From a virus: 48,864 nt of DNA. The stretch is taken from positions 1 through 48,864 of the IMG/VR virus record IMGVR_UViG_3300025266_000002. The stretch is one strand, 5' to 3'. The notes under the pieces were generated by a model. The model saw only the letters and a program-made list of their open reading frames with translations. It had not been told where the DNA came from and searched no databases. The position numbers were made by a program, and so were the translations under genes. Shown here one piece after another: positions 11,952 through 48,864 of this stretch (positions within the stretch are counted from its first letter, which is position 1; every line of letters begins with the position of its first letter).

Positions 11952-12118
11952 GCGTCTGAAGAAAAGGGCCTTCAGACGCCTTCAGACGGTTTTGCAAATT
12001 CGGTGCGTGTGAAGGTACAAACTGTTGAAATCATTGAGGAAATTTTCGGGCTTCAAACGCCATTTCTTCAGACGCATTCAAACGCGTTCAAACTATTGAT
12101 TTCATTCGATTCAGACGC
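11952..12118. repeat. Iteron array, probable replication origin
   Basis: The 363-bp gap after the primase-helicase holds repeats of TTCARACGC: plus-strand copies at 11971, 11981 (last base changed), 12052, 12067, 12077, 12087 (partial) and 12110, and inverted copies at 11952 and 12005 (one mismatch). Neighbours at 11971/11981 and 12067/12077/12087 are exactly 10 bp apart, so they face the same side of the helix. AT-rich segments at 12022-12050 and 12092-12110 could be the unwinding element. Tandem iterons beside an initiator gene are the usual plan of an origin; no binding data are available. Confidence 0.65.
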
Positions 12119-12133
12119 CTGTCCAAACCCCTT

Positions 12134-35064: not shown

Positions 35065-36503
35065 TGGTGAAAGTCTTCAACTCCTTCGGCGGCGACAACC
35101 CTATCGCGCAGACTTTGGATAGCCTGGGCAAACAGATGTTCGGCAACAACACTGCGAACGCGCTCAACAGCGAAAAGCTGTACGCAGCGCAGCGGGCCAA
35201 TCAGGAGACAGACAACCTGATGTCCCGCGCGGCGCAGATGGGCGTTCAATCCATGGCCGCCGACCCGGTGGCGCAGGCGTTGCTGATCGGGTCGGGGTAC
35301 GCTCCGAAGGATTTCGGGCAGATTGGCCTGATGGGTGCAGCGTCTGAGTTCGGCGCGGCGTCTCCGCAAGCACAGAACTGGCAGGTCGGCACGGGCCAAA
35401 GCTACAACAACACCGCGGACGCGTTCGGATCGAAACTCGCGGAGACCGCACGCAACAACAATATGGTCAGCTCAGATCGCCGGTACGGCGTGGATCAGAG
35501 CATCGGGCAGCAGCGCTACGAGTTCGACAACAAACCCGTCGGCGTGCTCGGCGCAGACATGCAGCCGACGTTCGGCGCGCAAGGCTCGCTTGCCGGCAGC
35601 GACATGCAGCCGATCATGTCGGACACGGACCGCAAAGGCACGCTGGTTGGCCAGCACTTCGGCGGCATGGGCGCGCTGCCAAGCGCAGAACAGAATTACA
35701 TGGGCGCGGACGGCAAGAGCCAGTCGCCAAAGAACTACGTCCTGCCGAACGGACAGAGCCTGATCACGTACGACGGCGTGACCGACGCGCAAACCGGCCA
35801 GCCGCTGCCTCCGGGCGGCGTGATCGGCACGGTACAGGGTGGCGCGAAAGACGTGGGGCTGACCAACTCGACGCAAAGCGGTGTCCAGCAAAACATCTTG
35901 GCGAACAACAAGTTCACCAATCTTCTTGAGATGACACGCGAAGCCGCGATGAAGGACCCGAACAACTTCGGCGTGCCCGGCTTTGTCAAGGGCATGGCGC
36001 AAGACTTGACGCAGATCACACAGGGGCTGGCGACCGGGTTCGGGTATCGGGACGCGCAGGAGTACCTGACGTCTGCGCAACGCGACATCGCACAGAGCGG
36101 CGTGGATCCGAACCTTTTGAGCGGCGTCTTCGACCCGAACCTCGACGAGCTGCGCACGCTGGCCGACCTGATGGTGTACTCGGCGGCCGAAGCCTTGGCC
36201 GGGCAGTCTGGCCGAAGCGTGTCTGACAAAGACGTGCAGTTCTTCAAATCGATCGTCGGCGATCCGCAGTCGTGGATCATGAACCAAGAGAAATACCTAG
36301 CCAAGATCAATCAGATTTCTCGTATCGTGGACATGAATCAGGGCACGCTGCAGGACGCACAGCAGAACGGCGCGGTGCCGTCTGCGGGGCCGCAGGCGCC
36401 TGCCGCGCCACAAGGCGGGCCAGTGGCCGGCACGGTTGAAGACGGTTTCGTGTTCAAGGGCGGCGACCCGGCTGATCCGGCCAACTGGCAGCAGGTGCAG
36501 TGA
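35064..36503 (+). CDS. Internal virion protein, gp15-like position
   Basis: A 479-aa, Gln/Asn/Gly-rich protein from ATG 35064; the longer frame upstream overlaps the previous gene and is rejected. The middle (LPNGQSLITYDGVTDAQTG) and the helical C-terminal half (FKSIVGDPQSWIMNQEKYLAKINQISRIV) fit an ejection protein. The last 45 residues end in a motif EDGFVFKGGDPADPANWQQV that recurs in phage structural proteins. Identity is inferred from order and composition. Confidence 0.7.
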   Translation: MVKVFNSFGGDNPIAQTLDSLGKQMFGNNTANALNSEKLYAAQRANQETDNLMSRAAQMGVQSMAADPVAQALLIGSGYAPKDFGQIGLMGAASEFGAASPQAQNWQVGTGQSYNNTADAFGSKLAETARNNNMVSSDRRYGVDQSIGQQRYEFDNKPVGVLGADMQPTFGAQGSLAGSDMQPIMSDTDRKGTLVGQHFGGMGALPSAEQNYMGADGKSQSPKNYVLPNGQSLITYDGVTDAQTGQPLPPGGVIGTVQGGAKDVGLTNSTQSGVQQNILANNKFTNLLEMTREAAMKDPNNFGVPGFVKGMAQDLTQITQGLATGFGYRDAQEYLTSAQRDIAQSGVDPNLLSGVFDPNLDELRTLADLMVYSAAEALAGQSGRSVSDKDVQFFKSIVGDPQSWIMNQEKYLAKINQISRIVDMNQGTLQDAQQNGAVPSAGPQAPAAPQGGPVAGTVEDGFVFKGGDPADPANWQQVQ

Positions 36504-39418
36504 TGGCAGGCCCTTGGGAGAAATACCAGCAGGCTCCGGCCGCGGCAGGCCCATGGCAGAAGTACCAGTCGGCCCCCGCCCCACAGGCAGCAGCGCCGCA
36601 GCCCGAAGACGTGCGCGGCGCAACAGGCGTGCCCGGTGGCGTCGCAGAAACCCCTGCCCCGGCGCCGCCAGCAGCTCCGGTCAATCAGGGTAACGACGCG
36701 CCGGTGTACGCCGCGCAGCAGACCAGCCGCGGCGTTGCCGATGTGCTTGGCGCTCCGGTCGATCTGATGTCAATGGCCGTCAACATGGGGCTGGTTGGTG
36801 CAGACAAGATGGCCGAGCTATTCGGCGGCAATCTCGACGCCCGCGTGCAGAACCCGATCGGTGGCTCGGACTGGATCGCGGACAAGGCGTCCAGCGCATA
36901 CGAAGGCATAGGCGGGCGCGTTGTGCCGCCCGAAGCTGTTTCGCCCGGTGTGCGGCTCGCTGGCGCCGGTGCGCGTGGCCTGTCCAGCGCGGTCATCCCC
37001 GGCATGGCGCTGGCGAGCAAGCCTGCGCAAGTCGCAGCGCAGGCCGGAAAAATGGGGTCCGTTGGCCGCGTCATGGCGCAGCCCTACGCATCCCGCCCCG
37101 GTTCGACGCTGGTGCACGATGCCGCGGCAGGTGTCGGCGCGGGCATGGGCGCTCAGAGCGTTGACGAGTATGCGCCTGAATCAGTGCAGGACTCATTCGC
37201 AGGGCCATTGCTCAAGGCGGGCGCGGCCCTTGCGGGCGGCGTGGGCGGCTCGGGCCTCGCCAGTGTGGCGGAAGGCTCTGCGCGTGGCGTCGGCAACATG
37301 GCGCGGAACATGGTCAAAGGTAAAGGCGACCCGAATGCGCCGGTCAACCCGGCCACAGGGCAACCGTTCACGCGCACAGAGATGGATCGTGCGGCCTACG
37401 TTGCGCAGCAGATGCCGACCGACAAGGCGCAGGCGCTCGACAACATCGACACCGGCGCGAAGGAATTCCGCCAGTTCGCCGGCGACAACGAGATGCCCAC
37501 GGTCGGCATGCTCGCCGACGACATCGGCATGGCCAGCCAAGAAAACGTGCTCCGTGCGCGTGACCCGCAGCGGTTCGCCGAACGGGACGCGGCACGCAGA
37601 TCGCTCGCAAGCCAGCGTGTCGATGCATCTGCGCCCCGCGGCGCGGACGGCCGCAATTTCACCAACGAGGCGGCCCGGCAGCACGACGACGCGTTGAGGG
37701 CCGCCAGTGCCCAGGTCGACGACGTTGCGGCCAGACAGGCCGCGGCACAGGCCGACGTACGTCGCCAGAACACAGACCTGGAAGCGTACCGGGCGCAACA
37801 GCCCGAAGCGTCCAGCGCCATGGCCAGCGACTACGAGGCGGCGCGCAAGGCTGCGCGGTCGCAGAAAAACGCTTTGTACGATGCTGCGGACCCGAAGACG
37901 CCGGTCGATGGCCGGTTCCTCGACGAGGCGGTCAAACGTATCGACGACGAGATGCCTGCGATGGAAAAGGCAGCCGGCGGTCCGTATTCCGTTATCGCGA
38001 ACCGGGTGCGCAACCGGCTCGCGAGCGAGGATCCGGTCACATATGGCGACCTGAAAGCGCTCCGCGCACAGATTTCCGAAGCAAGAAAGGCCGCGGTGTG
38101 GGCGTCGGGCCAATCCGTGGCCGGGTCCGGCGCGGATGTGCAGCGCCTCGATCAGCTCGGCAAGGTGGTTGACCATCTAACCGACAAGGTAAATCCGGAA
38201 GCCGCGCGCTTTTATAGCGAGGAATACGCCCCGCGGTTCAAGGAAGGCAAGTCGGGCGAATACGGCGCTGCGCTTGATCGCGCTGCGAGAACTGGTGGCG
38301 ACTCGTCAGCGACCCGCCCGAGCGAGTTCGGCGACAAGTTCTTGCGCAAGCCGGAAGACGCGGCGAGCCTGAAGAAGGCGGCGACCCCGATCCGCGGACC
38401 GAACGACAAAACAGCGCTGCCCGGCCCGGAAGCCAGCGGCCCGCCGACGGCTTCCAGGCCTGATCAGGCCACTGTCGCGAATGCGAAGAACTGGATGCTT
38501 GGCGATTTGGCCAAGTCTGGTGTGCTGACCGACGACGCCGGAATTCGCTTCGACAAATTCAAGCAGTGGGCCGACAAGAACCGCAAGACGATCGACCAGT
38601 TCCCGGAGATCGCGGAGACGGTGGATACCGAGTTGGCCAAGGCTCAGCGGGGCGGCGCGCTGTCCCGTCAGCTCGGCAAGGAAATTGCCGAAGCAAAAGC
38701 CGCCATGAAATCCACCGAAGCCGAAATGCGCTCGAGTGCGTTGCGCAACGCCATCGGCCGCAATCCGGCGAACGCCGTCGACGGTATCATGTCGAGCGGC
38801 GATCCGGAGAAGCAGATGGTCGAAATGGTCACGAGGCTATCCGGCAACAAGGACGCGACGGACGGGCTCAAGGCCGGTGTGCGTGACTGGATCAAAACCA
38901 AGGCCGGACTGACCAGCAAGATCGTCGGCGACCCCGACGCGGTGCGGCTTAGCCGGGCCAAGGTGGAAAATCTGTTTCAGAAGCACGAGAAGACGCTCGC
39001 CAGTGTCTACAGCCCCGACGAGATGAACGCGCTGCGCCAGGCGCACAAGCTGCTCGACGCCGAAGCGAAGTTGGACGTGCGGGCGACATCCGGTTCGAAC
39101 ACCTTCGACAAGATCAAGGCCGGCCAGAAGGCCAGCGCCACGCAGAACAAGCGGCTGATGGAAGCAGCGCTGAAGGCCAAGTTCGGCGTGCTCAAGGGCG
39201 GCGGCATCTTCCGAACGATGAACCTGTTCCTCGAATCGCTGCCTGACGGCAGTCGCGGCTTGGACGACATTCTGTTCGACATGCAGTTCAACCCGGACCT
39301 CGCCAAGCATTTGCTGACACGGCCGGTCAAGGACGTCGGCTCGCCGGACTGGAACTCGAAGCTCAACTCGCTCTTGGCGGTCGCGACAGGCGCCCGCGAG
39401 TCTGTGGGCGCGGACTAG
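36503..39418 (+). CDS. Large internal virion protein
   Basis: A 971-aa protein, the largest internal component. It begins with repeats GPWEKYQ and GPWQKYQ, a motif seen at the start of large podovirus internal proteins. Residues 70-250 are Gly/Ala-rich helices likely to contact membrane (AGVRLAGAGARGLSSAVIPGM type). The remainder is long charged helices (AEAKAAMKSTEAEMRSSALRN). No lytic transglycosylase motif of the T7 gp16 type is seen, so cell-wall cutting may fall to the M15 peptidase. Its stop overlaps the stop of the convergent gene by 4 bases, and there is no hairpin between them. Confidence 0.75.
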   Translation: MAGPWEKYQQAPAAAGPWQKYQSAPAPQAAAPQPEDVRGATGVPGGVAETPAPAPPAAPVNQGNDAPVYAAQQTSRGVADVLGAPVDLMSMAVNMGLVGADKMAELFGGNLDARVQNPIGGSDWIADKASSAYEGIGGRVVPPEAVSPGVRLAGAGARGLSSAVIPGMALASKPAQVAAQAGKMGSVGRVMAQPYASRPGSTLVHDAAAGVGAGMGAQSVDEYAPESVQDSFAGPLLKAGAALAGGVGGSGLASVAEGSARGVGNMARNMVKGKGDPNAPVNPATGQPFTRTEMDRAAYVAQQMPTDKAQALDNIDTGAKEFRQFAGDNEMPTVGMLADDIGMASQENVLRARDPQRFAERDAARRSLASQRVDASAPRGADGRNFTNEAARQHDDALRAASAQVDDVAARQAAAQADVRRQNTDLEAYRAQQPEASSAMASDYEAARKAARSQKNALYDAADPKTPVDGRFLDEAVKRIDDEMPAMEKAAGGPYSVIANRVRNRLASEDPVTYGDLKALRAQISEARKAAVWASGQSVAGSGADVQRLDQLGKVVDHLTDKVNPEAARFYSEEYAPRFKEGKSGEYGAALDRAARTGGDSSATRPSEFGDKFLRKPEDAASLKKAATPIRGPNDKTALPGPEASGPPTASRPDQATVANAKNWMLGDLAKSGVLTDDAGIRFDKFKQWADKNRKTIDQFPEIAETVDTELAKAQRGGALSRQLGKEIAEAKAAMKSTEAEMRSSALRNAIGRNPANAVDGIMSSGDPEKQMVEMVTRLSGNKDATDGLKAGVRDWIKTKAGLTSKIVGDPDAVRLSRAKVENLFQKHEKTLASVYSPDEMNALRQAHKLLDAEAKLDVRATSGSNTFDKIKAGQKASATQNKRLMEAALKAKFGVLKGGGIFRTMNLFLESLPDGSRGLDDILFDMQFNPDLAKHLLTRPVKDVGSPDWNSKLNSLLAVATGARESVGAD

Positions 39419-39672
39419 TCCTCCTGTTGTCGAGGCTTGACCTCAGTGTATCCACCAGGCCCGGCCAGCGCGGCAGCTATGCGCTGTGCTGCACCATAGT
39501 CGAAGCACTCCGCAATATTGTTCCCGTCATCAAGGATTGAATATTTGAAGCAGCAATGCGCGGTTTCAGATCCGTGGTGCAGCGCGATCCCCGTCAGATC
39601 TTCGGAGTTGTACGTCTGCCACGTAATCCCCTTGTCTCCGGTTCGCATGTATTCAAAGTCGCAATCGGACAT
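39415..39672 (-). CDS. Hypothetical small protein (85 aa)
   Basis: Start ATG 39672 chosen because AAGGAGCAACTC precedes it; in-frame ATG 39729 would add 19 residues and has GGAG 14 bases away. Reads MSDCDFEYMRTGDKGITWQ with two Cys-rich turns (HCCFKYS, ECFDYG). No family recognised. Confidence 0.65.
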   Translation of the reverse strand: MSDCDFEYMRTGDKGITWQTYNSEDLTGIALHHGSETAHCCFKYSILDDGNNIAECFDYGAAQRIAAALAGPGGYTEVKPRQQED

Positions 39673-39743
39673 GAGTTGCTCCTTATCCAGTCCTTGCGCC
39701 GTGGGATAAGCGCCAAAATCTGATGCCATGTCATCGGGAACTC

Positions 39744-39926
39744 CTATTGTTTGCGGTGATATTTCGCGACAAGATCGAGAAGCTGGCCATACGTCATATT
39801 GCCTGGGATGCAGTCACGGAGAGGCGCATCCCGAGTTATGGCGAGCGGCGCATTCATGTTCACGACCCGCGTGAAAGGGTCTACCGGGTCTTTGTCGTCG
39901 CCGCCAAGTTTGTAAGCTTGTGCCAT
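39744..39926 (-). CDS. Hypothetical small protein (60 aa)
   Basis: Starts MAQAYKLGGDDKDPVDPF with AGGAG nine bases upstream and ends NMTYGQLLDLVAKYHRKQ, probably a strand region and a final helix. It ends in CAATAGGAG, one of the repeated stop-plus-ribosome-site joints of this region. Confidence 0.65.
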   Translation of the reverse strand: MAQAYKLGGDDKDPVDPFTRVVNMNAPLAITRDAPLRDCIPGNMTYGQLLDLVAKYHRKQ

Positions 39927-39944
39927 CGTTCATTGCTCCTTCGA

Positions 39945-40121
39945 TTACGGTGTGAATGTCCCGCCGCAGGACTTGCATCGGTAGCCGTCAAAGACGGGGT
40001 CCGGGTGCGGCTCCCAATCCGGTTTCTTGCACGATCGCTCACGGCATGTGCGGATCATATAGCTTCGTGACATAGCCACTTCCATTTCAGCTTCATAAAG
40101 GTCATCTGCTGCATCGCCCAT
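39945..40121 (-). CDS. Small zinc-ribbon protein (58 aa)
   Basis: Two Cys pairs, CRERSC (26-31) and CKSC (49-52), frame a short beta region and would bind one zinc. Starts MGDAADDLYEAEMEVAM, an acidic helix. GGAGTGAACA precedes the ATG. Adjacent genes lie within 20 bases, in line with an operon. Confidence 0.65.
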   Translation of the reverse strand: MGDAADDLYEAEMEVAMSRSYMIRTCRERSCKKPDWEPHPDPVFDGYRCKSCGGTFTP

Positions 40122-40137
40122 TGTTCACTCCTTCGAT

Positions 40138-40338
40138 TTATGAGTGGCGGTCCAAGGCATCAACAATCCATTCTTCAGGTGGGCTGTTGTTTGCCTGTTC
40201 AAATTCGGCCCGCAGGTTGTCGCAATTTTCATGCGGGCTGCACCGGCCACCGCTCGCGCCGCAGCCATAGCCTCGGGTGATCATCCGGGGCATACCTTTC
40301 ACGAAGTACGCAAGCGGACATGTTGGGTCTTCGGTCAT
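40138..40338 (-). CDS. Hypothetical Cys-containing small protein (66 aa)
   Basis: Starts MTEDPTCPLAYFVKGMPRM with AACAGGAGC upstream, then GCGASGGRCSPHENC, a small Cys cluster that may bind metal. Similar cysteine-rich small proteins occur in phage accessory regions; no function known. Confidence 0.65.
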   Translation of the reverse strand: MTEDPTCPLAYFVKGMPRMITRGYGCGASGGRCSPHENCDNLRAEFEQANNSPPEEWIVDALDRHS

Positions 40339-40351
40339 GCCAGTGCTCCTG

Positions 40352-40795
40352 TTATTTGCGGGCGAACCGCGTTTTCAATTGGCCGCGCGACAGGCGCACC
40401 CCGGTTTCAATTTCGATGCGATCCGCCACCTGCTGCCGGGTCAGCGATCCATTGTCGTACAGCGCTTGCGCCCATTCCATCTTGTCGGCGGGGATCTCAC
40501 CCTTGAGCTTCGGCCCGCGCTTCTGCAACTCTTTCTGCGGCACATGAACCCTTGCGCCCGCTGCCTCAATGGCCTTGCGCATCTGGTTGGCTTTGGCTCC
40601 TGGGCCTAGATCACTCAACTGGATCATGACCACGACCACGCCGGGGCGGCACGTCGCCAGCATGGCGTTAAGCTCCATGCGGTCGGTGCTCTTGCTGTCA
40701 ATAAAGACCTTCCCCTTTTCAAACTCAAAGCCGAGCTTTCTAAGTTCGCGGTCGCTGCGATTGTACCCGTAGGCGATGTAAGCATCTTTTGTCAT
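40352..40795 (-). CDS. Resolvase/invertase-like protein with HTH, catalytically doubtful
   Basis: A 147-aa protein with the layout of small serine recombinases: AYIAYGYNRSDRELRKLG, VFIDSKSTDRMELNAML, GVVVVMIQLSDLGPG and a C-terminal HTH (DKMEWAQALYDNGSLTRQQVADRI). The nucleophile normally lies in YxRVS; here YNRSD has one residue fewer, and the second Arg motif (LDRLxR) reads LSDLGPG, so it is probably a regulator or a degenerate enzyme. It is the first gene of the leftward small cluster, facing the folded element at 40950. Confidence 0.65.
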   Translation of the reverse strand: MTKDAYIAYGYNRSDRELRKLGFEFEKGKVFIDSKSTDRMELNAMLATCRPGVVVVMIQLSDLGPGAKANQMRKAIEAAGARVHVPQKELQKRGPKLKGEIPADKMEWAQALYDNGSLTRQQVADRIEIETGVRLSRGQLKTRFARK

Positions 40796-40949
40796 GCGCC
40801 CGTTGTACGCTATTTATGTTCATATTTTCAATAGCACGATGTTTATGGTCGTGTCTATAATTATGTCGGCGTAATGCACGTATTAACTGTTGACTTATGC
40901 GCGAATTTCTGGCGGTATGGTTCTCAGAATAGAAATCATGCAAGGGACG

Positions 40950-41071
40950 ATGGGGTTCGGCGAGCGCTGCCGGAGCAATAGTAAGCGAGGCGCGGCCCAT
41001 TAGCGGGACAGCGATCCGGTCGGCCAACCGGAGCCAGATAAACGCCGCAAGCAGCGTTCACCGAACCCCAT
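40950..41071 (+). ncRNA. Candidate structured RNA or leader, 122 nt
   Basis: In the 299-bp divergent gap, ATGGGGTTCGG (from 40950) begins a 21-base arm that pairs with 41051-41071 (19 Watson-Crick pairs, one G-U, one mismatch). Inside, GCGGC (40992-40996) pairs with GCCGC (41044-41048), and TCCGGT (41015-41020) with ACCGGA (41027-41032) around CGGCCA. The nested, almost unbroken pairing resembles a riboswitch or small RNA, but no known class is recognised. The gene at 41095 follows with a normal ribosome site. TTGACT at about 40891 may be part of its promoter; the -10 is poor. Confidence 0.4.
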
Positions 41072-41094
41072 AAATCAAAAGGGAGACCAGCGAC

Positions 41095-41322
41095 ATGGAA
41101 GAGTCCAACCGCAAAGTCAGGATCGAGATGCATTTGATCGGTATCGAGCGCCAGCTCAAGACCAATGAGGCTTACGTGAAGGACGGCGGTGGCGATGTCA
41201 CAATGGCCGAAATTGGCAACTCCCATGTGCGAGATGCCATCGCAGAAATCCGCAAGGAATTGGCCGGCGAGGTGACGTATCCAGATCCGTTTCTGATGAT
41301 AAAGTCACCGGCATTTAACTAG
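41095..41322 (+). CDS. Hypothetical small protein (75 aa)
   Basis: Starts MEESNRKVRIEMHLIGIERQ with AAGGGAG upstream; helical and charged, ending YPDPFLMIKSPAFN. First gene of the rightward accessory set 41095-42710, whose genes are separated by 10-20 bases and share stop-plus-AGGGA joints. Unknown function. Confidence 0.7.
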   Translation: MEESNRKVRIEMHLIGIERQLKTNEAYVKDGGGDVTMAEIGNSHVRDAIAEIRKELAGEVTYPDPFLMIKSPAFN

Positions 41323-41343
41323 AACATTTAGGGGACGAACCCG

Positions 41344-41589
41344 ATGAGCATGATGCCGACTGGCGACAAGGGGCAGCGCTATGAAGTCAGCGCCACCGGA
41401 TACCCGCTGAAAGACGAGCCCTGCATCATCGGATGGGTGGACCAGATCGATGGTGCGAAGCGCATGGCGCTGAGTATCGCGAAGGCTCCCGGCTGCGTGT
41501 CTTGGACGATCCGCGATCGGTGGAACAAAACCCCGGAATGGCCGGGCGGAAAATACACTCAAATGGTTGGCGCGGGTGGTCTGCGCTAA
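41344..41589 (+). CDS. Hypothetical small protein (81 aa)
   Basis: Starts MSMMPTGDKGQRYEVSATGY after AGGGGACGAACC. A beta-rich protein (VSWTIRDRWNKTPEWPGGKY). Strand pattern suggests a small barrel. It ends next to the repeat joint AACAATAGGGACGATG. Confidence 0.7.
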   Translation: MSMMPTGDKGQRYEVSATGYPLKDEPCIIGWVDQIDGAKRMALSIAKAPGCVSWTIRDRWNKTPEWPGGKYTQMVGAGGLR

Positions 41590-41613
41590 CCGCAAACAAT
41601 AGGGACGATGACC

Positions 41614-41829
41614 ATGGGACAGAAGATTGACAAAGCTGCACTCGCTGTTGCGGTGAAGAAGACGGCGAAGCTTCGGGTTGAGGATGTCGGCGGGCGAAAA
41701 GAGCGCCCTGCCGAGACGGTCGCAAGCTGCCTCAATCGTGGCTTTGGCGACCTCGGATCGCCGGAAGGGATTGAGTACATTTTGCGCCACGCCATCAAGT
41801 ATTACTTGGCCGAAACCACCAACATCTAA
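41614..41829 (+). CDS. Hypothetical small protein (71 aa)
   Basis: ATG 41614 is preferred to ATG 41608 because AGGG is nine bases away. Reads MGQKIDKAALAVAVKKTAKL then VASCLNRGFGDLGSPEGIEYI and a helical end. No recognised family. Confidence 0.65.
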   Translation: MGQKIDKAALAVAVKKTAKLRVEDVGGRKERPAETVASCLNRGFGDLGSPEGIEYILRHAIKYYLAETTNI

Positions 41830-41841
41830 AGGACATCAGGC

Positions 41842-42189
41842 ATGACCAAATTCGCAACGCACGGCGTCTTGGGCGCATCAACCGGCATCCTCATGGGCGA
41901 CATCGGCGACCTCTACAAGGTCGTTTCGTTTCTGCTCGGGCGACCTGCTCACACGCATGACCTCGCCCACTACGGCAAGCGTGTCGCAGATGCTTTGATC
42001 ATCTGCCATCCCGAATTGCCAGACGATGCGCCCGATGGGACGTGGGAAAAGGTCCGCGATGCGTTCACCTCAAAATGGGGTGATGAAATGGAACTTGACC
42101 CGGCGCTTGACGCGGTCTTGGCCGACGACAGAAACCCCATCGAAACGCTCCGAGATATGGGCTTCGGTGGCAAGATCACAACTCTGTAA
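41842..42189 (+). CDS. Conserved phage protein (DUF7736-like, tentative)
   Basis: A 115-aa protein: ATHGVLGASTGILMGDIGDLYKVVSFLLGRPAHTHDL, then HPELPDDAPDGTWEKV. The arrangement of GILMGDIGDLY and a TH-x-L motif is familiar from accessory phage proteins. AAAGGACATC precedes the ATG. No known activity. Confidence 0.72.
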   Translation: MTKFATHGVLGASTGILMGDIGDLYKVVSFLLGRPAHTHDLAHYGKRVADALIICHPELPDDAPDGTWEKVRDAFTSKWGDEMELDPALDAVLADDRNPIETLRDMGFGGKITTL

Positions 42190-42206
42190 TTCAAGGGACC
42201 AAACCA

Positions 42207-42374
42207 ATGGCCGATGAACTAAAGACTATCGATGATCTGGTCGCTCTCGACCGTGACGACATGGTTGACGAGATCGAGGAAGTGATCTCAGAAAGCTTCG
42301 ATATCGATTGGACAGCGAGGGTAGGCGCGGAACGCATCGCGGACTACCTAATCAAGCTTTCAAAAACCGCGTAA
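42207..42374 (+). CDS. Hypothetical acidic protein (55 aa)
   Basis: Starts MADELKTIDDLVALDRDD and is strongly acidic throughout (VDEIEEVISESFDIDW). AAGGGACC precedes the ATG. It may be a small inhibitor or DNA mimic by charge, but that is only a possibility. Confidence 0.6.
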   Translation: MADELKTIDDLVALDRDDMVDEIEEVISESFDIDWTARVGAERIADYLIKLSKTA

Positions 42375-42389
42375 CAATAGGGAAGTCCG

Positions 42390-42710
42390 ATGGAAACGAA
42401 GCCAACAGAGCACGGCTTTGCGCTTGGCAAGTTCACCGACGCATACAATGTGCCGTGCTCGATCCAAGAGAGCAGCAAGTGCGCAAACGATGACGGCGAA
42501 AGCTACATCTGGCTTGGTTGTGATGAACTCGGGTTGAAGCAATTCATGCCGAACGGCAATCCCGCTTGGCGCGATGTCGACTTGCACGAAGCATTCCCCG
42601 CCGCTGAGTATTTCAGCCACAATACGCGGATGCACCTCACTCAATCACAGGTCCGCGCTTTGCTGCCTCAGTTGCAGTATTTTGCAGACCACGGAACACT
42701 GAAACAATAG
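42390..42710 (+). CDS. Conserved phage protein of accessory regions
   Basis: A 106-aa protein with FTDAYNVPCSIQESSKC, IWLGCDELGLK and the C-terminal MHLTQSQVRALLPQLQYF. This combination is common in small phage proteins that I have seen called hypothetical. ACAATAGGGAAG precedes it. It is the last gene of the rightward accessory set. Confidence 0.75.
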   Translation: METKPTEHGFALGKFTDAYNVPCSIQESSKCANDDGESYIWLGCDELGLKQFMPNGNPAWRDVDLHEAFPAAEYFSHNTRMHLTQSQVRALLPQLQYFADHGTLKQ

Positions 42711-42794
42711 GGACGATTGCCAAGGGCCGCAAGAAATGCAACTTAAACTGAATTTTGCGCCGACCTAACGTGGCGATTGAAAAGGGAGATCATT

Positions 42795-43613
42795 ATGCAA
42801 AATGTAAACGTTAAAGAATTTTGGGAAAAAGGGTATTTGATAATCCCCAACGTGTTCACGCCCGAAGAGATTGAGCAGTATCGCCAAGCCGCGCTTGCAA
42901 CGAAGGCGACAGGTGGCGACCTTCTTCTGCGGCCCGGTTTCAGCGGCATCATCACGGATGGCCGGCTGGCGTCAGTGGCGCGGCAGCTACTTGGTGTTGA
43001 GGATATCCTCTATGCCGGTGACAGCTCGCTAACAATAAACTCCAGCCAGCACGGTTGGCACAAGGACAACGCCGACCGCATGGATGCCGATGCACCTGAT
43101 TGGCAGGGGCGCTATACCCAGCTCCGCTTTGGGGTCTATCTTCAAGACCACCACCAGCACAGCGGCGGGCTTAACCTGCGTGAAGGATCGCACGACATCG
43201 TGGATCTTGCGCGCGGCAAGTGCTTGTACATCCGAACAACGCCCGGCGATCTCGCTGTCTGGAATATGCGGATCACGCACTCTGGCAATGGGGCAATTCT
43301 CAAAGACCCGAATGCGCCTGCGCCGACGCCTGGAGAACTGCCCAAGATTCCTCCAGAGCAACTGGCCCCACTCCACGAGCACCGGATGTCCATATTCGCG
43401 CACCTCGGGGCGAACGACAGCCACGGGGCCAGATATGTGGATTATCTGAAGACTCGAACATACATCGTCAACATGTGGCGTCGTCAGGGCTACAGCGATG
43501 AAGTGCGCCAAGAAGTAAAGCGGGCCGGTATCACGCTTCGGGACATGCCTGCGGAAGTCGCAAACGACCCATCGGCTGGGCTTAATGAAGGCTGGGCACC
43601 CCTTCCGTATTGA
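42795..43613 (+). CDS. Phytanoyl-CoA dioxygenase-family (PhyH) Fe(II)/2-oxoglutarate oxygenase
   Basis: A 272-aa non-haem iron oxygenase. The metal site is HKD at 89-91 (QHGWHKDNAD) with the distal His at about 162 (RITHSGNG), inside a double-stranded beta-helix pattern (YTQLRFGVYLQDHHQHSGGLNLREGSHD). Substrate cannot be told: lipid, small metabolite, or nucleic acid are all possible. ATG 42795 follows AAGGGAGATCATT. The first 60 codons are AT-rich against the surrounding genes, which suggests recent transfer. It sits between the accessory set and the integrase, the usual place for lysogenic cargo. Confidence 0.85.
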   Translation: MQNVNVKEFWEKGYLIIPNVFTPEEIEQYRQAALATKATGGDLLLRPGFSGIITDGRLASVARQLLGVEDILYAGDSSLTINSSQHGWHKDNADRMDADAPDWQGRYTQLRFGVYLQDHHQHSGGLNLREGSHDIVDLARGKCLYIRTTPGDLAVWNMRITHSGNGAILKDPNAPAPTPGELPKIPPEQLAPLHEHRMSIFAHLGANDSHGARYVDYLKTRTYIVNMWRRQGYSDEVRQEVKRAGITLRDMPAEVANDPSAGLNEGWAPLPY

Positions 43614-43618
43614 TTAAT

Positions 43619-43656
43619 CGGGTCATGTGCCCGCATATTTTAGGGCACATGACCCG
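43619..43656. terminator. Bidirectional hairpin between PhyH and integrase
   Basis: CGGGTCATGTGCCC (43619-43632) pairs perfectly with GGGCACATGACCCG (43643-43656), 14 bp, around an AT-rich 10-base loop. It lies between convergent genes, 5 bases past the PhyH stop and 2 before the integrase stop. No clear T-run; termination in both directions is likely from its position. Confidence 0.7.
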
Positions 43657-43658
43657 CG

Positions 43659-44714
43659 TCACATCTCCAATCGCGCCGCCAGGCTCTCCGCAGAGTGGTG
43701 GCCGTACACGCGGTCGACCGTCGTCGCCGTATCTCCCAATAGCTTCCCCACATCGTAGATCGAAACGCCGTCCTGCAGCAAGTGTGTCGCGCGAGAGTGC
43801 CGGATGATGTGCAGGTGCTGCTTGCCTTCCGGCAGACCGACCGCCCTCGCCAGCTTGCGGACGCGCCGGTAGTAATCGGGGTATTGAAACAGCCGGTCGT
43901 CGCCGCCCGTCTCCAGCAATGCCGACACGACCGGCTCCATGGCCTTGAGTATCGGCACGATCGGCTGCCTCTTCTTGGTGGCCTTTTTGTCGGCCGGCTT
44001 CAGGATAATGCGTCGCTCGCGCCAGCGGACCTGGCCACGGGTCAGGTTCTCGATCGAGCGGCGCCGGGCGCCGGTCAAATACAGCAGCCGCAGAAACAGG
44101 CCGACATCACCTTCTGCGTTGTCAGCCGCCGCGAAAAGCGCCTCTAGCTCATCGTGCGCCAGGTACGACACCTCGTCGTCCCGCCCGCCCCCGACCGAAG
44201 GCAGCTCGACGTCGACCGGCACAGCACCGGGCTTACGGTTCTTGACGGCGTGATTGGCCGCGGCGACGAGCACCGTCAGCTCGCGGCGGATCGTCGATGC
44301 GCCAACCGGTTTGTTCCGCCCAGGGCCGCCGCCTACGCGGCCCGCAGCTCTGCCGGCGGCGTACGCTTTGCTGGCCGCGATGTCCGCATCGCGCACCGGC
44401 ATCTCGCCATAGTATTGCTTCAGGGGGTATATCGCGAACTCGTTGCGCTCTGGCGCTGCGCATTTGGCGCGCACGTGTTCGTCCATATATCCATCGAGCA
44501 CCTGCCCGACGGTCAACACACCGTCGCCCTTGGGCTTGCGAAGCTCGCGCCCGTTGATTAAGAACTCGCCGAACCTAAGCTCCGCTTGATCTTTGTCTCG
44601 CGTACGAAGGCTGATGCTTCTTGTTGTGCGCGCGCTCTCGTCGTACCAGAACGCGTAAAAGATTCCGTTATCGCGCGTGTCGAGCCACGGGGTCGTCCTC
44701 TTGGGTCTCGCCAT
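43659..44714 (-). CDS. int: Tyrosine-family integrase
   Basis: A 351-aa site-specific recombinase. N-terminal arm-binding region (NGIFYAFWYDESARTTRSISLRTRD), core-binding helices (about 65-170) and the catalytic domain: R217 in LTGARRRSIENL, H302-x-x-R305 in LHIIRHSRAT, and nucleophile Y337 in VDRVYGHH. The position normally holding LGH reads LLGD. GGGGAG precedes ATG 44714. It should insert the phage at tRNA-Val(CAC), using attP at 47437-47486. The start overlaps the excisionase-like gene by about 150 bases. Confidence 0.93.
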   Translation of the reverse strand: MARPKRTTPWLDTRDNGIFYAFWYDESARTTRSISLRTRDKDQAELRFGEFLINGRELRKPKGDGVLTVGQVLDGYMDEHVRAKCAAPERNEFAIYPLKQYYGEMPVRDADIAASKAYAAGRAAGRVGGGPGRNKPVGASTIRRELTVLVAAANHAVKNRKPGAVPVDVELPSVGGGRDDEVSYLAHDELEALFAAADNAEGDVGLFLRLLYLTGARRRSIENLTRGQVRWRERRIILKPADKKATKKRQPIVPILKAMEPVVSALLETGGDDRLFQYPDYYRRVRKLARAVGLPEGKQHLHIIRHSRATHLLQDGVSIYDVGKLLGDTATTVDRVYGHHSAESLAARLEM

Positions 44715-44863
44715 ATGTTTTTGAACTCCCCTACCTTCCCGATTCCGAAGCGCATGTGCCCGCCTTCGGTTCGGCTGCTTGGCTCGAACTTCCCTTCGTT
44801 CACATAGCGAGTGACCGTGCGGACCGACACGCCGACTTTTTTGGCGAACTCACCGATCTGCAT
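44558..44863 (-). CDS. MerR-type HTH protein, probable excisionase
   Basis: A 101-aa protein. Residues 1-50 are a MerR/Xis winged helix (MQIGEFAKKVGVSVRTVTRYVNEGK, then GGHMRFGIGKV). The C-terminal half is basic and lies in a different frame over the first 157 bases of int. AGGAGC precedes ATG 44863, and TGATG couples it to the preceding gene. Position before int and the HTH type support an excisionase role; a regulator is the alternative. Confidence 0.75.
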   Translation of the reverse strand: MQIGEFAKKVGVSVRTVTRYVNEGKFEPSSRTEGGHMRFGIGKVGEFKNIWRDPRGRPRGSTRAITESFTRSGTTRARAQQEASAFVRETKIKRSLGSASS

Positions 44864-45081
44864 CAATGCTCCTGTTCCTTGACCGCGGACGCGCGGTCAG
44901 AAGACGCGTACGGATTGCGATGTTCGGGGTCCACTTCTTTGCGGCCTTCGTGCCATTCGTACTGCTCCATCGAACCTAGCGTTTCTAAAAACGCGGTATC
45001 GTCGTCCCGCCCTGCTTGGCGGACCTTATCTCGCCGAGGCTGCATGTCTTTCCACCACTGTTGGTCGCGCACCCGAGTCAT
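44863..45081 (-). CDS. Hypothetical basic/acidic small protein (72 aa)
   Basis: Starts MTRVRDQQWWKDMQPRRDK and is highly charged. AGGAGCACTAATTC precedes the ATG. It lies between the repressor and the excisionase-like gene and may modulate the lysogeny switch. No family recognised. Confidence 0.65.
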   Translation of the reverse strand: MTRVRDQQWWKDMQPRRDKVRQAGRDDDTAFLETLGSMEQYEWHEGRKEVDPEHRNPYASSDRASAVKEQEH

Positions 45082-45084
45082 GAA

Positions 45085-45531
45085 TTAGTGCTCCTGTTCC
45101 TTGCTCTTACGCAGGATGGCCAGGATCTCCATGGCGTCTGCCCAATCGAGCGGTTGGTTCACGCGCAGCCAAACTCGGCCGTCGCCCATGTCCTTCAGAT
45201 CCATGTCGGAAGCCATCGCGCCTCGTGCGGTCACGCCGCGGGCCGGCAACAGGTCTTCCTTGGCCACATCGAGCGCAGCCGCCAGCGCGTCAAGGCGCAC
45301 CGGGTTCGGCATGTTGCGGGCGTTCACATATTGGGAGATGGAATCGCGGTTGATGCTGCCTTCGGGCATGTGTTTGGTCGCAGCACGCGCGAGGTCGCTC
45401 TGATTCCAGCCGCGCTTCACCATCTCAGCCTGCAGTTTCCTGGCGAACTCCAGGGCCACGGCATCCCGCGGCGCTGATTTCGGCAGATCGCCATGCGGCT
45501 CTGTGTGTATGGTAAGTCGTCTTTTGGGCAT
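45085..45531 (-). CDS. XRE-family repressor (CI-like)
   Basis: A 148-aa regulator with one HTH: LEFARKLQAEMVKRGWNQSDLARAATKHM, then SINRDSISQYVNARNMPNPVRLDALAAAL. The C-terminal 55 residues (MDLKDMGDGRVWLRVNQPLDWADAMEILAIL) probably dimerise; there is no LexA-type peptidase Ser/Lys pair, so it is not a self-cleaving repressor. ATG 45531 has GGGGGAAC upstream; GTG 45549 is possible. It is read from a promoter whose -35 lies in an inverted repeat (45617-45641), so it probably represses itself. Confidence 0.85.
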   Translation of the reverse strand: MPKRRLTIHTEPHGDLPKSAPRDAVALEFARKLQAEMVKRGWNQSDLARAATKHMPEGSINRDSISQYVNARNMPNPVRLDALAAALDVAKEDLLPARGVTARGAMASDMDLKDMGDGRVWLRVNQPLDWADAMEILAILRKSKEQEH

Positions 45532-45595
45532 CTCAAGTTCCCCCAACACCGGTTCGCTCTCCTTCCGTCCACTATCGTTCTTGCTATATTAACAA

Positions 45596-45641
45596 AGATA
45601 GGTGCCTGTCCTCCGATTTGCAAGAGGCTTTGTCTTGCAAA
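45596..45641 (-). promoter_or_regulatory. Repressor promoter and overlapping operator
   Basis: On the minus strand, -35 CTTGCA (45619-45624) and -10 CTATCT (45596-45601) are 17 apart. The -35 is half of an inverted repeat, TTTGCAAGA (45617-45625) and TCTTGCAAA (45633-45641), a typical self-regulation operator. Beyond it, to 45680, TTTCGACA/TGTCGAAA half-sites related to the dispersed motif occur on both strands, and GCGGGC/GCCCGC forms a small hairpin near 45680. The rest up to 45754 shows no gene. Confidence 0.65.
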
Positions 45642-45754
45642 ATCGAAACTTGTCGGAAAAAGAAGGTTTCGACACATGCGGGCACCGCCCGCGGCGCGCT
45701 TATGCGCGATTTGCGACCGGTTGTCGAGGTGGGGTGCTAAATTTCGAAGGGGGT

Positions 45755-46054
45755 CTAGTCTTTGTTTTTCGTGATCATGTGGGATATCAGCATGTTGAGT
45801 TGCCCTTGCATCGCGGTCAAAGAACCTTCGACCCGCGACCAATGTGACACCATGTCGCTTTCCTTCATCATCTCGTCCCGCGTTCTGTTGACCCGCTCGT
45901 GAAGGGTGGCCACTTCCTTGTCGCAATGATCTCGGGCTTTTGATGTCTTGTGTTCGATGGTGGCGTGGATCTGTCTGTCGCGCACGATGGCGCCGCCTAC
46001 AATCGTCACCAGGGTGGCCGCAATCCCCAACAGCCCTACGACATCTGTGTTCAT
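45755..46054 (-). CDS. Small membrane protein, possible holin
   Basis: A 99-aa protein with one N-terminal membrane helix (VVGLLGIAATLVTIVGGAIV, about 5-24), then a long charged coiled coil (HKTSKARDHCDKEVATLHERVNRTRDEMM). ATG 46054 overlaps the Rz1 stop (ATGA). Location in the lysis cassette suggests a holin or holin regulator, but a single helix with a long soluble coil would be unusual; role uncertain. Confidence 0.65.
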   Translation of the reverse strand: MNTDVVGLLGIAATLVTIVGGAIVRDRQIHATIEHKTSKARDHCDKEVATLHERVNRTRDEMMKESDMVSHWSRVEGSLTAMQGQLNMLISHMITKNKD

Positions 46055-46272
46055 GACCAGCAGCCTTGTTTCTTGCCGAACTCGTCCGTGGATACGACCC
46101 ACCGCGACAACGCCGCTTCTTCCTTCGCCATGCGCACCGGGCTATTCGCCCTGGGTGGCTTTTTCCACCCCGCGCAGTTCGTCGCATTCGTCTGGCAGCC
46201 CGCCAAGACCAATGCAGACATCACGACGGCTGCGGGAGCCCACATCGTTATCGATCGTGTTTCGGGTTTCAT
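46051..46272 (-). CDS. Outer-membrane spanin lipoprotein (Rz1-like)
   Basis: A 73-aa lipoprotein: a short basic start (MKPETRSIT), a hydrophobic segment, and a lipobox LVLAGC at about 22-27, so the mature form begins at Cys. It lies mostly inside the Rz gene in another frame, the classic Rz/Rz1 arrangement. With Rz it fuses inner and outer membranes at the end of lysis. ATG 46272 is the first start that gives a signal peptide. Confidence 0.8.
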   Translation of the reverse strand: MKPETRSITMWAPAAVVMSALVLAGCQTNATNCAGWKKPPRANSPVRMAKEEAALSRWVVSTDEFGKKQGCWS

Positions 46273-46420
46273 GGGCCTCCACCGTGTCCTTGAGTCGTTC
46301 GTTGTCTGTGGCCGTAGAGCTGGCCCAATAGCCTGCGCCGTAGACTGCCGCGCCGACGAGCGAGACCGCGACAAGCACAGCGGCCGCGCGCCCGAGCGGA
46401 GTGGCCAGGAGCGCGATCAC
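46142..46420 (-). CDS. Inner-membrane spanin (Rz-like)
   Basis: A 92-aa protein with an N-terminal anchor (AAAVLVAVSLVGAAVYGAGYW, about 12-32) and a short periplasmic helix (DNERLKDTVEAHETRN). Start GTG 46420 overlaps the endolysin stop as GTGA. Shorter than typical Rz, but the nested Rz1 supports the call. Confidence 0.8.
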   Translation of the reverse strand: MIALLATPLGRAAAVLVAVSLVGAAVYGAGYWASSTATDNERLKDTVEAHETRNTIDNDVGSRSRRDVCIGLGGLPDECDELRGVEKATQGE

Positions 46421-47220
46421 GAGATTTCCGCAATCGCAGAGCGTGCGTTCGACTTCTTCTTGCGGCGATCATAGACGATGTACCCGGCCACTCCGGCGAT
46501 CACGAGCGCCAGCAAGACCCACGGGCCGAAACTGATGAATGTCGCGCTGGTTTCCTTGACGGCTTCTGCCGCCTCTTTCGCCGCCATAGCTGTGCCGGCC
46601 ACGCCGGTGCACGCGGTGCCGACTTCGGTGACGGACACCCTGCCTTCCGCGGCGACGTTCTTGACGACCTGCTCCGTTGCGGGCGGAAGCGCGGCTTTGT
46701 CGAGCCCGCGATGCCGGCGCTGCACTTCTGTGAGCGCTGCGTGCACCTGCGCCACCGACACGCTCGCGCGTTGGCCGCCATAGTGGCCTCTGCCATCCGT
46801 GTTGGGCAATGACGCCCACTCTCGAGCGAGGTTGTTGACGAGGGTGTCGAGCTTCAGCCGCCCGGCCAGCCATTTGTCGATGCCGCGGCCGCCGAGAAGG
46901 TAGCACGCCATGCGGTCCTGCATGTCGCGGTCGAACATGGCGCTGGGGCTGTTGCGCAGCGCGACGTCTATCTTGCGCCGGGTCGTGCGGACGATCTGGT
47001 ACCGACCGAGCGCGGACGAATTGAACGAGTTGCGCGGATGCGCGAGCATGCGCGACTGCAGCGTGTCGATCTGCGCCAGCGTCATGCCCACCAGGTTGAC
47101 GTCGCCGCCGGTGTACGCGCCATAGGCCAGCGTTTCGTTGTAGCCGTCGCCTTTGTCGGTGCCTTCGGACGTCCCGATCAGGTCGAGCATCGGTCGGTAC
47201 ACATAATACTTATCGGGCAT
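46417..47220 (-). CDS. Endolysin (lysozyme-like, GH104-type) with C-terminal membrane helix
   Basis: A 267-aa muralytic enzyme. The catalytic half is of the type seen in alphaproteobacterial phages: LDLIGTSEGTDKGDGYNETLAYGAYTGG (Glu in SEGTDKG the probable acid), SSALGRYQIV, DRMACYLLGGRGIDKWLAGR and GRGHYGGQR. The C-terminal 40 residues hold a membrane helix (WVLLALVIAGVAGYIVY) followed by KKKS, so the protein is anchored at the C-terminus, unlike a SAR endolysin. ATG 47220 has AAAAGGACA upstream; the open frame to 47286 runs through regulatory motifs. Confidence 0.88.
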   Translation of the reverse strand: MPDKYYVYRPMLDLIGTSEGTDKGDGYNETLAYGAYTGGDVNLVGMTLAQIDTLQSRMLAHPRNSFNSSALGRYQIVRTTRRKIDVALRNSPSAMFDRDMQDRMACYLLGGRGIDKWLAGRLKLDTLVNNLAREWASLPNTDGRGHYGGQRASVSVAQVHAALTEVQRRHRGLDKAALPPATEQVVKNVAAEGRVSVTEVGTACTGVAGTAMAAKEAAEAVKETSATFISFGPWVLLALVIAGVAGYIVYDRRKKKSNARSAIAEIS

Positions 47221-47233
47221 CGACACTGTCCTT

Positions 47234-47277
47234 TTGTCGAAACTTGAACGTAGGAATGTTGTCTCATCTTTCAACAA
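47234..47277. promoter_or_regulatory. Two opposed copies of the dispersed motif before the endolysin
   Basis: TTGTCGAAACTTGAA on the plus strand (47234-47248) faces TTGTTGAAAGATGAG on the minus strand (47263-47277), 14 bases apart and 14-57 bases upstream of the endolysin start. The only head-to-head pair in the genome. Confidence 0.55.
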
Positions 47278-47312
47278 GTATGGCAAGACCTGCCTCTGAA
47301 AAGCATGTCGAG

Positions 47313-47348
47313 GATTGCTCCGTTAACTGCGCAGTTAACGGAGCAATC
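47313..47348. other. Perfect 36-bp palindrome
   Basis: GATTGCTCCGTTAACTGC (47313-47330) is followed at once by its exact reverse complement (47331-47348), so there is no loop. It sits 90 bases from attP between the end of the replication operon and the lysis genes. It lacks a T-run for termination. Possible roles: site for a dimeric protein, replication or integration control, or end of the early transcript. Confidence 0.8.
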
Positions 47349-47436
47349 TGTCGCGTTTCTCAGGTTTCACGATGCCGATAAGAGCAATGTTTTCAGCAAA
47401 ACTTTGTCGAATGTTGTCAGTTTTTAGGTTCGAAAA

Positions 47437-47486
47437 CTGCCTTCACACGGCAGGGGTCACAGGTTCAATCCCTGTCGCGCCCACCA
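47437..47486 (+). other. attP: attP core: 3' half of a tRNA-Val(CAC) gene
   Basis: The 50 bases fold as the 3' part of a tRNA: anticodon stem CTGCC/GGCAG (47437-47441/47449-47453) with loop TTCACAC (anticodon CAC at 47444-47446), variable GGGTC, T-arm ACAGG/CCTGT with loop TTCAATC, acceptor strand CGCGCCC, A, and encoded CCA (47484-47486). The 5' half is absent. Carrying the tRNA 3' end is the normal way for an integrase to rebuild the target gene after insertion. Confidence 0.88.
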
Positions 47487-47500
47487 CCTAAACCACTGAA

Positions 47501-47755
47501 TTAGCTTCGAAAATTAACATACGCGACATTGTCGGTTCGACAACTTTCGCGATGCACTGCTCCGCTAAAAGCCATATTCAGTTTGGCAACCCTGGCCACG
47601 GCGGAATTTAATTCCGCAAGCGATTCAAGGCTCTGTTGTCGAAAGAACGCACCGGCTGCGCGTTCGAGCTCGCCTGCGGCAAAAAGATACTCCGGCAGCC
47701 CGCCGTAGCGTTCTGACGTGTCGCGGAGACTGTTTGTGATCTGTGCTATGTTCAT
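47501..47755 (-). CDS. Hypothetical protein, last gene of the replication operon
   Basis: An 84-aa, mainly helical protein (MNIAQITNSLRDTSERYGGLP, then AAGAFFRQQSLESLAELNSAVARV). ATG 47755 overlaps the previous stop as ATGA. It ends 15 bases from attP, so it would be the prophage's terminal gene on that side. Unknown function. Confidence 0.7.
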   Translation of the reverse strand: MNIAQITNSLRDTSERYGGLPEYLFAAGELERAAGAFFRQQSLESLAELNSAVARVAKLNMAFSGAVHRESCRTDNVAYVNFRS

Positions 47756-48054
47756 TTGCGCCACGAGCCTTTCTTCACGTCGAACCCATTCAGACGGTTC
47801 GCGTCCTTCAATTCCGTCAGCTTGTCCCGAAAACAGCCTTCCGGATCGTTTTTGAGTTCGAACTGCTTGATCTGCACGCCCACATGCACCGGGCCTTCGA
47901 TTTTTGCGTACTGCGGGTTTCCGGGCGCGTTCCACACTGCGGCCAGCGTCAAATCCGCACCCGTTGGCATGCGGACGACGCGATCAGCCGACTTGCACAG
48001 GTTGCGGAACTGCGTTTCGAAAAGACGAGCGTAGCGCCCAAGTTTCGTGGTCAT
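47752..48054 (-). CDS. Hypothetical protein downstream of DNA polymerase
   Basis: A 100-aa protein from ATG 48054 (MTTKLGRYARLFETQFRN), which overlaps the polymerase stop as ATGA with AGGAA before it. Beta-rich middle (HVGVQIKQFELKNDPEG). It contains no known motif; coupling suggests an accessory to replication. Confidence 0.7.
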   Translation of the reverse strand: MTTKLGRYARLFETQFRNLCKSADRVVRMPTGADLTLAAVWNAPGNPQYAKIEGPVHVGVQIKQFELKNDPEGCFRDKLTELKDANRLNGFDVKKGSWRK

Positions 48055-48864
48055 TTCCTGTACCTCTCTCCTTCGAAGCCTTCGGCGGCCACCGGAAGAC
48101 CGGCAGCCCACGCAGGCAAATCACACATGATTTCTTCCATCTCGCCAACAGACCCGTGGCCGCCCGGCACTTCGCAGACCACTTCGTCGTGGACCGTCAA
48201 AATTATCGGGTAGCCCGCCGCTTCGAGCCGCGGCATCGCGTCAGCCAACACATCGCGGGCGACGGCCTGCGTGGCATTTTCCGCGAGCATTCCGCCATAG
48301 GTCTTGATCCGCGCCCATGTCGGGCTGTTGCGCTCGTCCTCGACGATCTTCTTTTTCTTCGACACGTCGATCGTCGAGAAATATGTCAGGCCCTCTTTCG
48401 TACCGCCCCACGGCACTTCGAACTCGCGCACTTCGGGGAACGGGTACATCATGAACCGGCCGCTCGGCAGCCGCATGAACAGGAACGATCCGGCGCATTT
48501 GAAGACGATCCGGCCCGCGCGATGGATCGAGCCTGGCGCGCGCACCGCGGACACCGCCGCGTTCTCCATGTCGTACCAGAACTGCTTGATGGCCGGGTGC
48601 TTCTCGCGCCAACCGTCGCGGATGGCTTCGATCTCAGGCACGTCAAGGTTCACGCCATAGGCTTCGGCCATCGTTGAGAACGCGCCGACACCGCCCTGAT
48701 ACCCAAGGGCCAGCTCCGGCACCTTGCCGTGGCTCTGCCGTTCGTCCTTCGTCACGTCGCCCGGATCCTTGTGCAGAATGCCGCCGGCGGTGATCTTGTA
48801 AAGGTCGTGGCCGACCCCGGCATCGAAATCACGGAACGCGTCGATCTTCCACATTTCGCCGGCG
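48051..48864 (-). CDS. polA: DNA polymerase I (family A), C-terminal part; continues from 1-1428
   Basis: Palm and fingers of the polymerase described at 1-1428. Motif B region GKVPELALGYQGG (Lys at about residue 481, Tyr at 489 of the joined protein) and motif C TVHDEVV with HDE at about 659-661 are intact, so the enzyme should be active. The stop overlaps the next start (ATGA). Bases 48738-48864 duplicate 1-127. Confidence 0.95.
   Translation of the reverse strand, partial: AGEMWKIDAFRDFDAGVGHDLYKITAGGILHKDPGDVTKDERQSHGKVPELALGYQGGVGAFSTMAEAYGVNLDVPEIEAIRDGWREKHPAIKQFWYDMENAAVSAVRAPGSIHRAGRIVFKCAGSFLFMRLPSGRFMMYPFPEVREFEVPWGGTKEGLTYFSTIDVSKKKKIVEDERNSPTWARIKTYGGMLAENATQAVARDVLADAMPRLEAAGYPIILTVHDEVVCEVPGGHGSVGEMEEIMCDLPAWAAGLPVAAEGFEGERYRK
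48738..48864. repeat. Right copy of the 127-bp terminal direct repeat
   Basis: Identical to bases 1-127; counted once, the genome is 48,737 bp. See the left copy. Confidence 0.95.

Follow-up and report, generated by a model that had tools for sequence, protein, structure and literature searches.

A probable attachment site formed by the 3' part of tRNA-Val(CAC) in a circular phage genome

Introduction

Is a truncated tRNA gene in the genome of an uncultivated phage the site through which that phage enters a bacterial chromosome, or is it the remains of something else? The question arises in a circular phage genome of 48,864 nt from the virus record IMGVR_UViG_3300025266_000002, analysed here over its whole length and referred to as the window. 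An answer fixes the predicted integration site of the phage to one tRNA gene. Phages that integrate into tRNA genes usually possess a core of 30–45 bp that includes the 3' half of the target and rebuilds the tRNA at one junction, according to the available sections of two papers (PMC10865867, PMC3706429). In another source, available in part, 3919 islands were mapped and 3760 of them had 3' fragments (PMC4383910).

The element is very probably the attP common core of a temperate tailed phage, itself probably alphaproteobacterial, whose integrase uses the 3' part of the host tRNA-Val(CAC) gene in such a way that the tRNA is preserved. The identity and its limits, the single tyrosine integrase, the in-silico rebuilding of the tRNA and the recurrence of this signature in relatives, one chromosomal prophage included, are established. 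Temperate phages that target tRNA genes commonly have such an attP core, and the kind is well known; its separation from the integrase gene is uncommon.

The core and its limits

Read directly, positions 47437-47453 form an anticodon arm (stem CTGCC, loop TTCACAC with anticodon CAC, stem GGCAG). On its 3' side follow GGGTC, the T stem and loop (ACAGG-TTCAATC-CCTGT), CGCGCCC, the discriminator A and a CCA that ends at 47486. Positions 47436-47486 match nucleotides 26-76 of bacterial tRNA-Val(CAC) genes without a mismatch: they are the final two thirds of the gene, with the D arm and the 5' acceptor strand missing. An earlier note on this DNA had placed the 3' half of tRNA-Val(CAC) at 47437-47486, and both the arm-by-arm reading and the bacterial identity bear this out. 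Its statement that the anticodon arm, T arm, acceptor strand and CCA are intact and the 5' half absent is likewise correct, and ARAGORN finds no complete tRNA in the whole window. The proposed length of 50 bases needs a small amendment: the 50-mer identity holds, but the shared stretch is 51 nt long, as the identity between tRNA and phage usually takes in A26, one base 5' of the 50-mer, and ends at the CCA.

The Rfam tRNA model scores the core below threshold (27.4 bits, threshold 29). A covariance model trained on 13 tRNA 3' halves, the window's own half among the 13, gives it 60.7 bits (E 1.2e-11) and has no other match in the window at E <= 0.05. Neither model detects a second tRNA-like fragment in the window.

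Genome setting

The features of the region are collected in Table 1. The window carries an exact 127-bp terminal repeat (1-127 and 48738-48864), which is probably the assembler overlap of a circular genome. Assemblers often use a maximum k-mer of 127, and the repeat is therefore no evidence for a packaging repeat. The core lies between two phage genes, those for DNA polymerase A and for an endolysin-like protein. Since the record is circular and there are phage genes on either side, the site is read as an attP, and an attR left at a contig end was rejected.

Table 1. Coordinates of the core and of features near it in the window
Feature	Position	Strand	Basis or remark
Tyrosine integrase, 351 aa	43659..44714	-	sole PF00589 match in window
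HTH repressor-like protein, 154 aa	45085..45549	-	between endolysin and integrase genes
Endolysin-like protein (phrog_90)	46417..47286	-	between attP and integrase block
Candidate arm-type integrase site TTGTCGAA	47234..47241	+	repeat
Candidate arm-type site TTGTCGAA	47404..47411	+	repeat
attP core (very probable)	47436..47486	+	identity to nt 26-76 of bacterial tRNA-Val(CAC) gene
Candidate arm-type site, reverse of TTGTCGAA	47536..47543	-	repeat
Candidate arm-type site TTGTCGAA	47636..47643	+	repeat
DNA polymerase A, C-terminal part	48051..48854	-	gene crosses circular join; other side of attP

The window as a whole has a GC content of 61% and the attP flank one of 49%, a difference in favour of the attP reading. 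A perfect, spacer-free palindrome of 36 bp with 18-nt arms (47313-47348) separates attP from the start of the endolysin gene; a 61-nt stretch that contains it has a folding energy of -27.5 kcal/mol, whereas shuffled sequences average -11.9, and an operator, a terminator or a recombination accessory site are candidate roles. Elsewhere in the genome, directly after the primase-helicase gene (11955-12120), there are about eight repeats resembling CTTCAGACGC/TTCAAACGC and an IHF-like site at 12089, a cluster that looks like the iterons of a replication origin.

Integrase and candidate arm-type sites

The integrase matches PF00589 at 1.4e-13, and a search with this profile reveals no second integrase in the window. 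It retains the catalytic R, HxxR and Y, and the third-box His is replaced by Asp. Asn or Asp occupies the third-box position in most relatives, including an integrated prophage discussed below (G462).

The 8-mer TTGTCGAA occurs nine times in the window, and four of the nine copies fall within 47234-47643. This is the sole four-copy 8-mer cluster of the lysogeny region, and it sits at attP. The cluster is only moderately rare, which counts against the attP reading: four copies of some 8-mer were reached in 27 of 5000 shuffles of the attP region and in 31 of 967 genome windows. The repeats are plausible arm sites of the window integrase. No IHF consensus site was found in the attP region, a further point against that reading.

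Integration model

In the proposed scheme, attB is the stretch of a host tRNA-Val(CAC) gene, at its 3' end, that is identical to the attP core. The window's tyrosine integrase would recombine the two, strand exchange probably taking place near the anticodon loop. The resulting prophage would be bounded by an intact tRNA-Val gene with a phage-borne 3' part (attL) and by a bare 3' half (attR); attL would rebuild the tRNA, and the host would keep it. The predicted attL junction is tRNA-Val(CAC) followed by CCTAAACCACTGAATTAG, and the predicted attR junction is CAGTTTTTAGGTTCGAAAA followed by the core.

When the phage core was joined in silico to six bacterial loci from different groups, ARAGORN recognized a complete tRNA-Val in attB and attL in 6/6 cases, and in all six attR was a fragment in which no tRNA was detected. 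The earlier note had held that the core predicts the bacterial insertion site exactly: the tRNA-Val(CAC) 3' half stands as the predicted target, and all six joins behave as predicted, but an integrated copy of the window phage was not found in the genomes searched.

Position of attP relative to the integrase gene

An attP site usually, though not obligatorily, adjoins the integrase gene, a feature missing in the window: here 2.7 kb separate attP from the start of the integrase gene, and the site is on the 5' side of that gene and on the opposite strand. Twelve records could be compared (the window, Mae-Yong1326-1, RHph_N65, G001, G018, G019, G020, G021, G024, G030, L002 and G462); outside this comparison of distances are G007, G010 and G012, which have a tRNA match and no integrase match, and the records that have no tRNA match. 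In ten of the twelve, with G001 counted by its integrase intB, the half is found 0.1-0.8 kb past the integrase 3' end and on the same strand. The exceptions are the window and Mae-Yong1326-1 (12.4 kb), in both of which the half is 5' of the integrase gene, on the opposite strand and downstream of the polymerase.

The sister integrase-repressor block of G001 is convergent toward the polymerase end, whereas the block of the window reads away from the polymerase; an inversion of the repressor-integrase block would give the layout of the window. With attP positioned directly after the DNA polymerase gene both in Mae-Yong1326-1 and in the window, the chances seem about even that the attachment site can uncouple from the integrase gene in this lineage. 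Were this true, the integrase gene would fall within the prophage and not at its edge. The separation counsels caution against seeking attP solely beside the integrase gene. Literature searches gave, among the entries listed, no matching description of a separated attP and integrase, which does not in itself show that none has been published.

Which enzyme uses the site

The distance and the opposite strand raise the possibility that the half once served as attP for an integrase since lost, and that the present enzyme uses another, unrecognised site. G001 lends this some weight: its tRNA-Val(CAC) half lies 0.6 kb past a distant second integrase, intB, and 13.2 kb from intA, and the half could therefore be the site of an intB-type enzyme. 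In a maximum-likelihood tree, however, the window integrase and G001 intA are sisters (100/100), and the same clade takes in the integrase of L002 (92/90), whose gene stops 105 bp short of a tRNA-Val(CAC) half that does not differ from the window's. Since this clade-mate pairs with the identical half, use of the window half by the window enzyme is favoured. Moreover, the 51 nt are free of mismatches, whereas an unused sequence would decay; the window offers neither a second integrase nor a second tRNA-like fragment; and the only four-copy 8-mer cluster of the lysogeny region is located at the core. A relic site is thus improbable, albeit the most serious of the alternatives, and the window's own integrase presumably acts at 47436-47486.

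Much less probable still is a tRNA gene of the phage itself that has decayed, or a tRNA-like RNA with some other purpose. The Rfam tRNA model does loosely pair the upstream GTTCGAAAAC as a D arm, yet a D arm and a 5' acceptor strand proper are absent, decay would not be expected to leave 51 bases identical to the host gene and sharply bounded at nucleotide 26, and similar halves adjoin integrases in relatives; a relic tRNA gene was rejected. Tyrosine integrase and tRNA target are both also present in tRNA-dependent lysogeny, in which the host tRNA is disrupted on integration and one encoded by the phage takes over, but that system is described, in the available part of the source, with a core of about 10 bp and a complete phage tRNA (PMC10865867), whereas the window core is 51 bp, rebuilds the tRNA and is accompanied by no complete tRNA gene: with both defining features missing, a short non-rebuilding core and a phage-encoded tRNA of matching type, this reading was rejected as extremely unlikely.

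Relatives and their tRNA halves

Comparisons of portal, polymerase and integrase link the window to Rhizobium phage RHph_N65, to phage Mae-Yong1326-1 and to IMG/VR contigs. Single-protein scans of viral contigs disclosed no integrase or endolysin relatives, and a megablast of 36000-48864 among phages gave no match. Counting the window itself, the covariance model of 3' halves has a match at E <= 0.05 in 14 of 36 records. Two matches, in G029 and at 7514 in G019, were dropped from the attP count as complete tRNA-Pro genes, Pro(cgg) and a Pro(tgg) per ARAGORN.

Eleven relatives harbour equivalent halves, of tRNA-Val, tRNA-Thr or tRNA-Ala. With isotypes assigned by eye from the anticodon, halves of tRNA-Val(CAC) are found in the window, L002 and G001, and of tRNA-Val(GAC) in G018, G024 and G012; tRNA-Thr(GGT) is represented in Mae-Yong1326-1, G019, G020 and G021, and tRNA-Thr(CGT) in RHph_N65 and G030. 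The members of this small lineage (the window, RHph_N65, Mae-Yong1326-1 and metagenomic relatives) thus use tRNA 3' halves, which annotation overlooks: none is annotated in the records of RHph_N65 or Mae-Yong1326-1.

The G462 chromosome, placed in the family of Nisaea nitritireducens (L122, also listed as G085), displays the predicted end state for a relative. A related prophage whose interior includes integrase and portal lies between an intact tRNA-Ala(GGC) and an identical half of 49 bp, 47.6 kb apart. Prophage relatives integrated elsewhere had been named in the earlier note as evidence against the proposed site; other tRNAs are indeed used (tRNA-Thr, tRNA-Val(GAC), tRNA-Ala), but they are still entered at their 3' halves.

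RHph_N65 (MN988536) resembles the window in its portal, terminase, polymerase, integrase and repressor. Its unannotated tRNA-Thr(CGT) 3' half (11799-11848) derives from a different tRNA and lies 0.77 kb past the integrase gene on the same strand, and it has GACCTACA repeats where the window has TTGTCGAA. G001 (IMG/VR 3300037313_000674, loci L127 and L294) has the polymerase nearest to that of the window, with 70% identity across its C-terminal part, as well as the sister integrase and a tRNA-Val(CAC) half; it differs in encoding two tyrosine integrases (L294 5389-6339 and L127 17960-18823), and the half adjoins the one unlike that of the window. Among characterized phages, mycobacteriophage Omega (Cluster J) offers a parallel, as far as the available text of PMC3706429 goes: a tyrosine integrase and a tRNA 3'-half core, of 44 bp from the anticodon loop on, with paired arm-type repeats on both sides, where the window has candidate TTGTCGAA repeats. 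The Omega attP is about 100 bp past the integrase 3' end, unlike the inverted site on the 5' side in the window, and the hosts differ (PMC3706429).

The 'Microcystis' phage Mae-Yong1326-1 (OP028995) shares related core proteins and, as noted, the position of its half with the window; its core begins in the anticodon loop. The unannotated tRNA-Thr(GGT) 3' half with CCA (L126, OP028995.1, 22966-23015) is followed by TCTTTTCAAGCACTT, a flank that resembles those after tRNA-Val in Roseococcus. The tRNA-Thr core plus flank was found in 0/250 genomes of the order of a Roseococcus, and the core at <=1 mismatch in 0/115 alphaproteobacterial class genomes. The available sections of the paper on this phage report no tRNA, a GC content of 71.8% and Magnetospirillum as the best integrase match (PMC9503304). 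The Roseococcus-like flank, this GC content and this match make it doubtful that Microcystis is the natural lysogenic host.

Host range and other elements at tRNA-Val(CAC)

The core had been expected to provide a handle for finding the host. This expectation is not borne out, and the core is a weak handle: bacterial contig stretches with the exact 50-mer number at least 120, they come from several groups of Alphaproteobacteria as well as from some Gammaproteobacteria, and the sequence is too common to name a host. Carriers among the matches listed include Roseococcus, Gluconobacter, Hoeflea, Afifella, Rhodospirillales MAGs and gammaproteobacterial Chromatiaceae. A genome scan (matches listed) and a viral scan together yielded 123 loci with the exact 50-mer (L002-L124); their 125 copies, among the matches listed, comprise 112 full tRNA-Val genes, ten bare halves and three cut by contig ends. 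The 51-mer occurs in three of 115 class genomes, the chosen centre being one of the three. The host is probably alphaproteobacterial, because of the relatives RHph_N65 and G462 and the tRNA sequence.

The earlier note had also proposed a search for identical tRNA-Val(CAC) 3' ends and for prophages ending there. Identical 3' ends and elements ending at them were found, but no prophage of the window phage was among them. An intact gene and a displaced half share a contig in Gluconobacter kondonii (81.5 kb apart), G. cadivus (45.7 kb) and an alphaproteobacterial MAG (12 kb), elements known from the positions of gene and half and from integrase matches, which does not imply kinship to the window phage. 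A profile search for a related portal gave 0/49 core-holding genomes, 1/385 class genomes and 1/36 family genomes, the latter two being the same genome. Across 385 genomes neither an integrated copy of the window phage nor its host flank was found: the window integrase had no match at E <= 1e-25 (with no more than five candidates per genome given a score, among the matches listed), and the 3' flank pattern of the core had none at <=3 mismatches.

On a contig of Hoeflea halophila (L123, L124), tRNA-Val(CAC) occurs three times in a span of 5 kb, at 350683, 350878 and 355373, with an integrase-like gene among them, possibly the outcome of tandem or residual integration at this tRNA.
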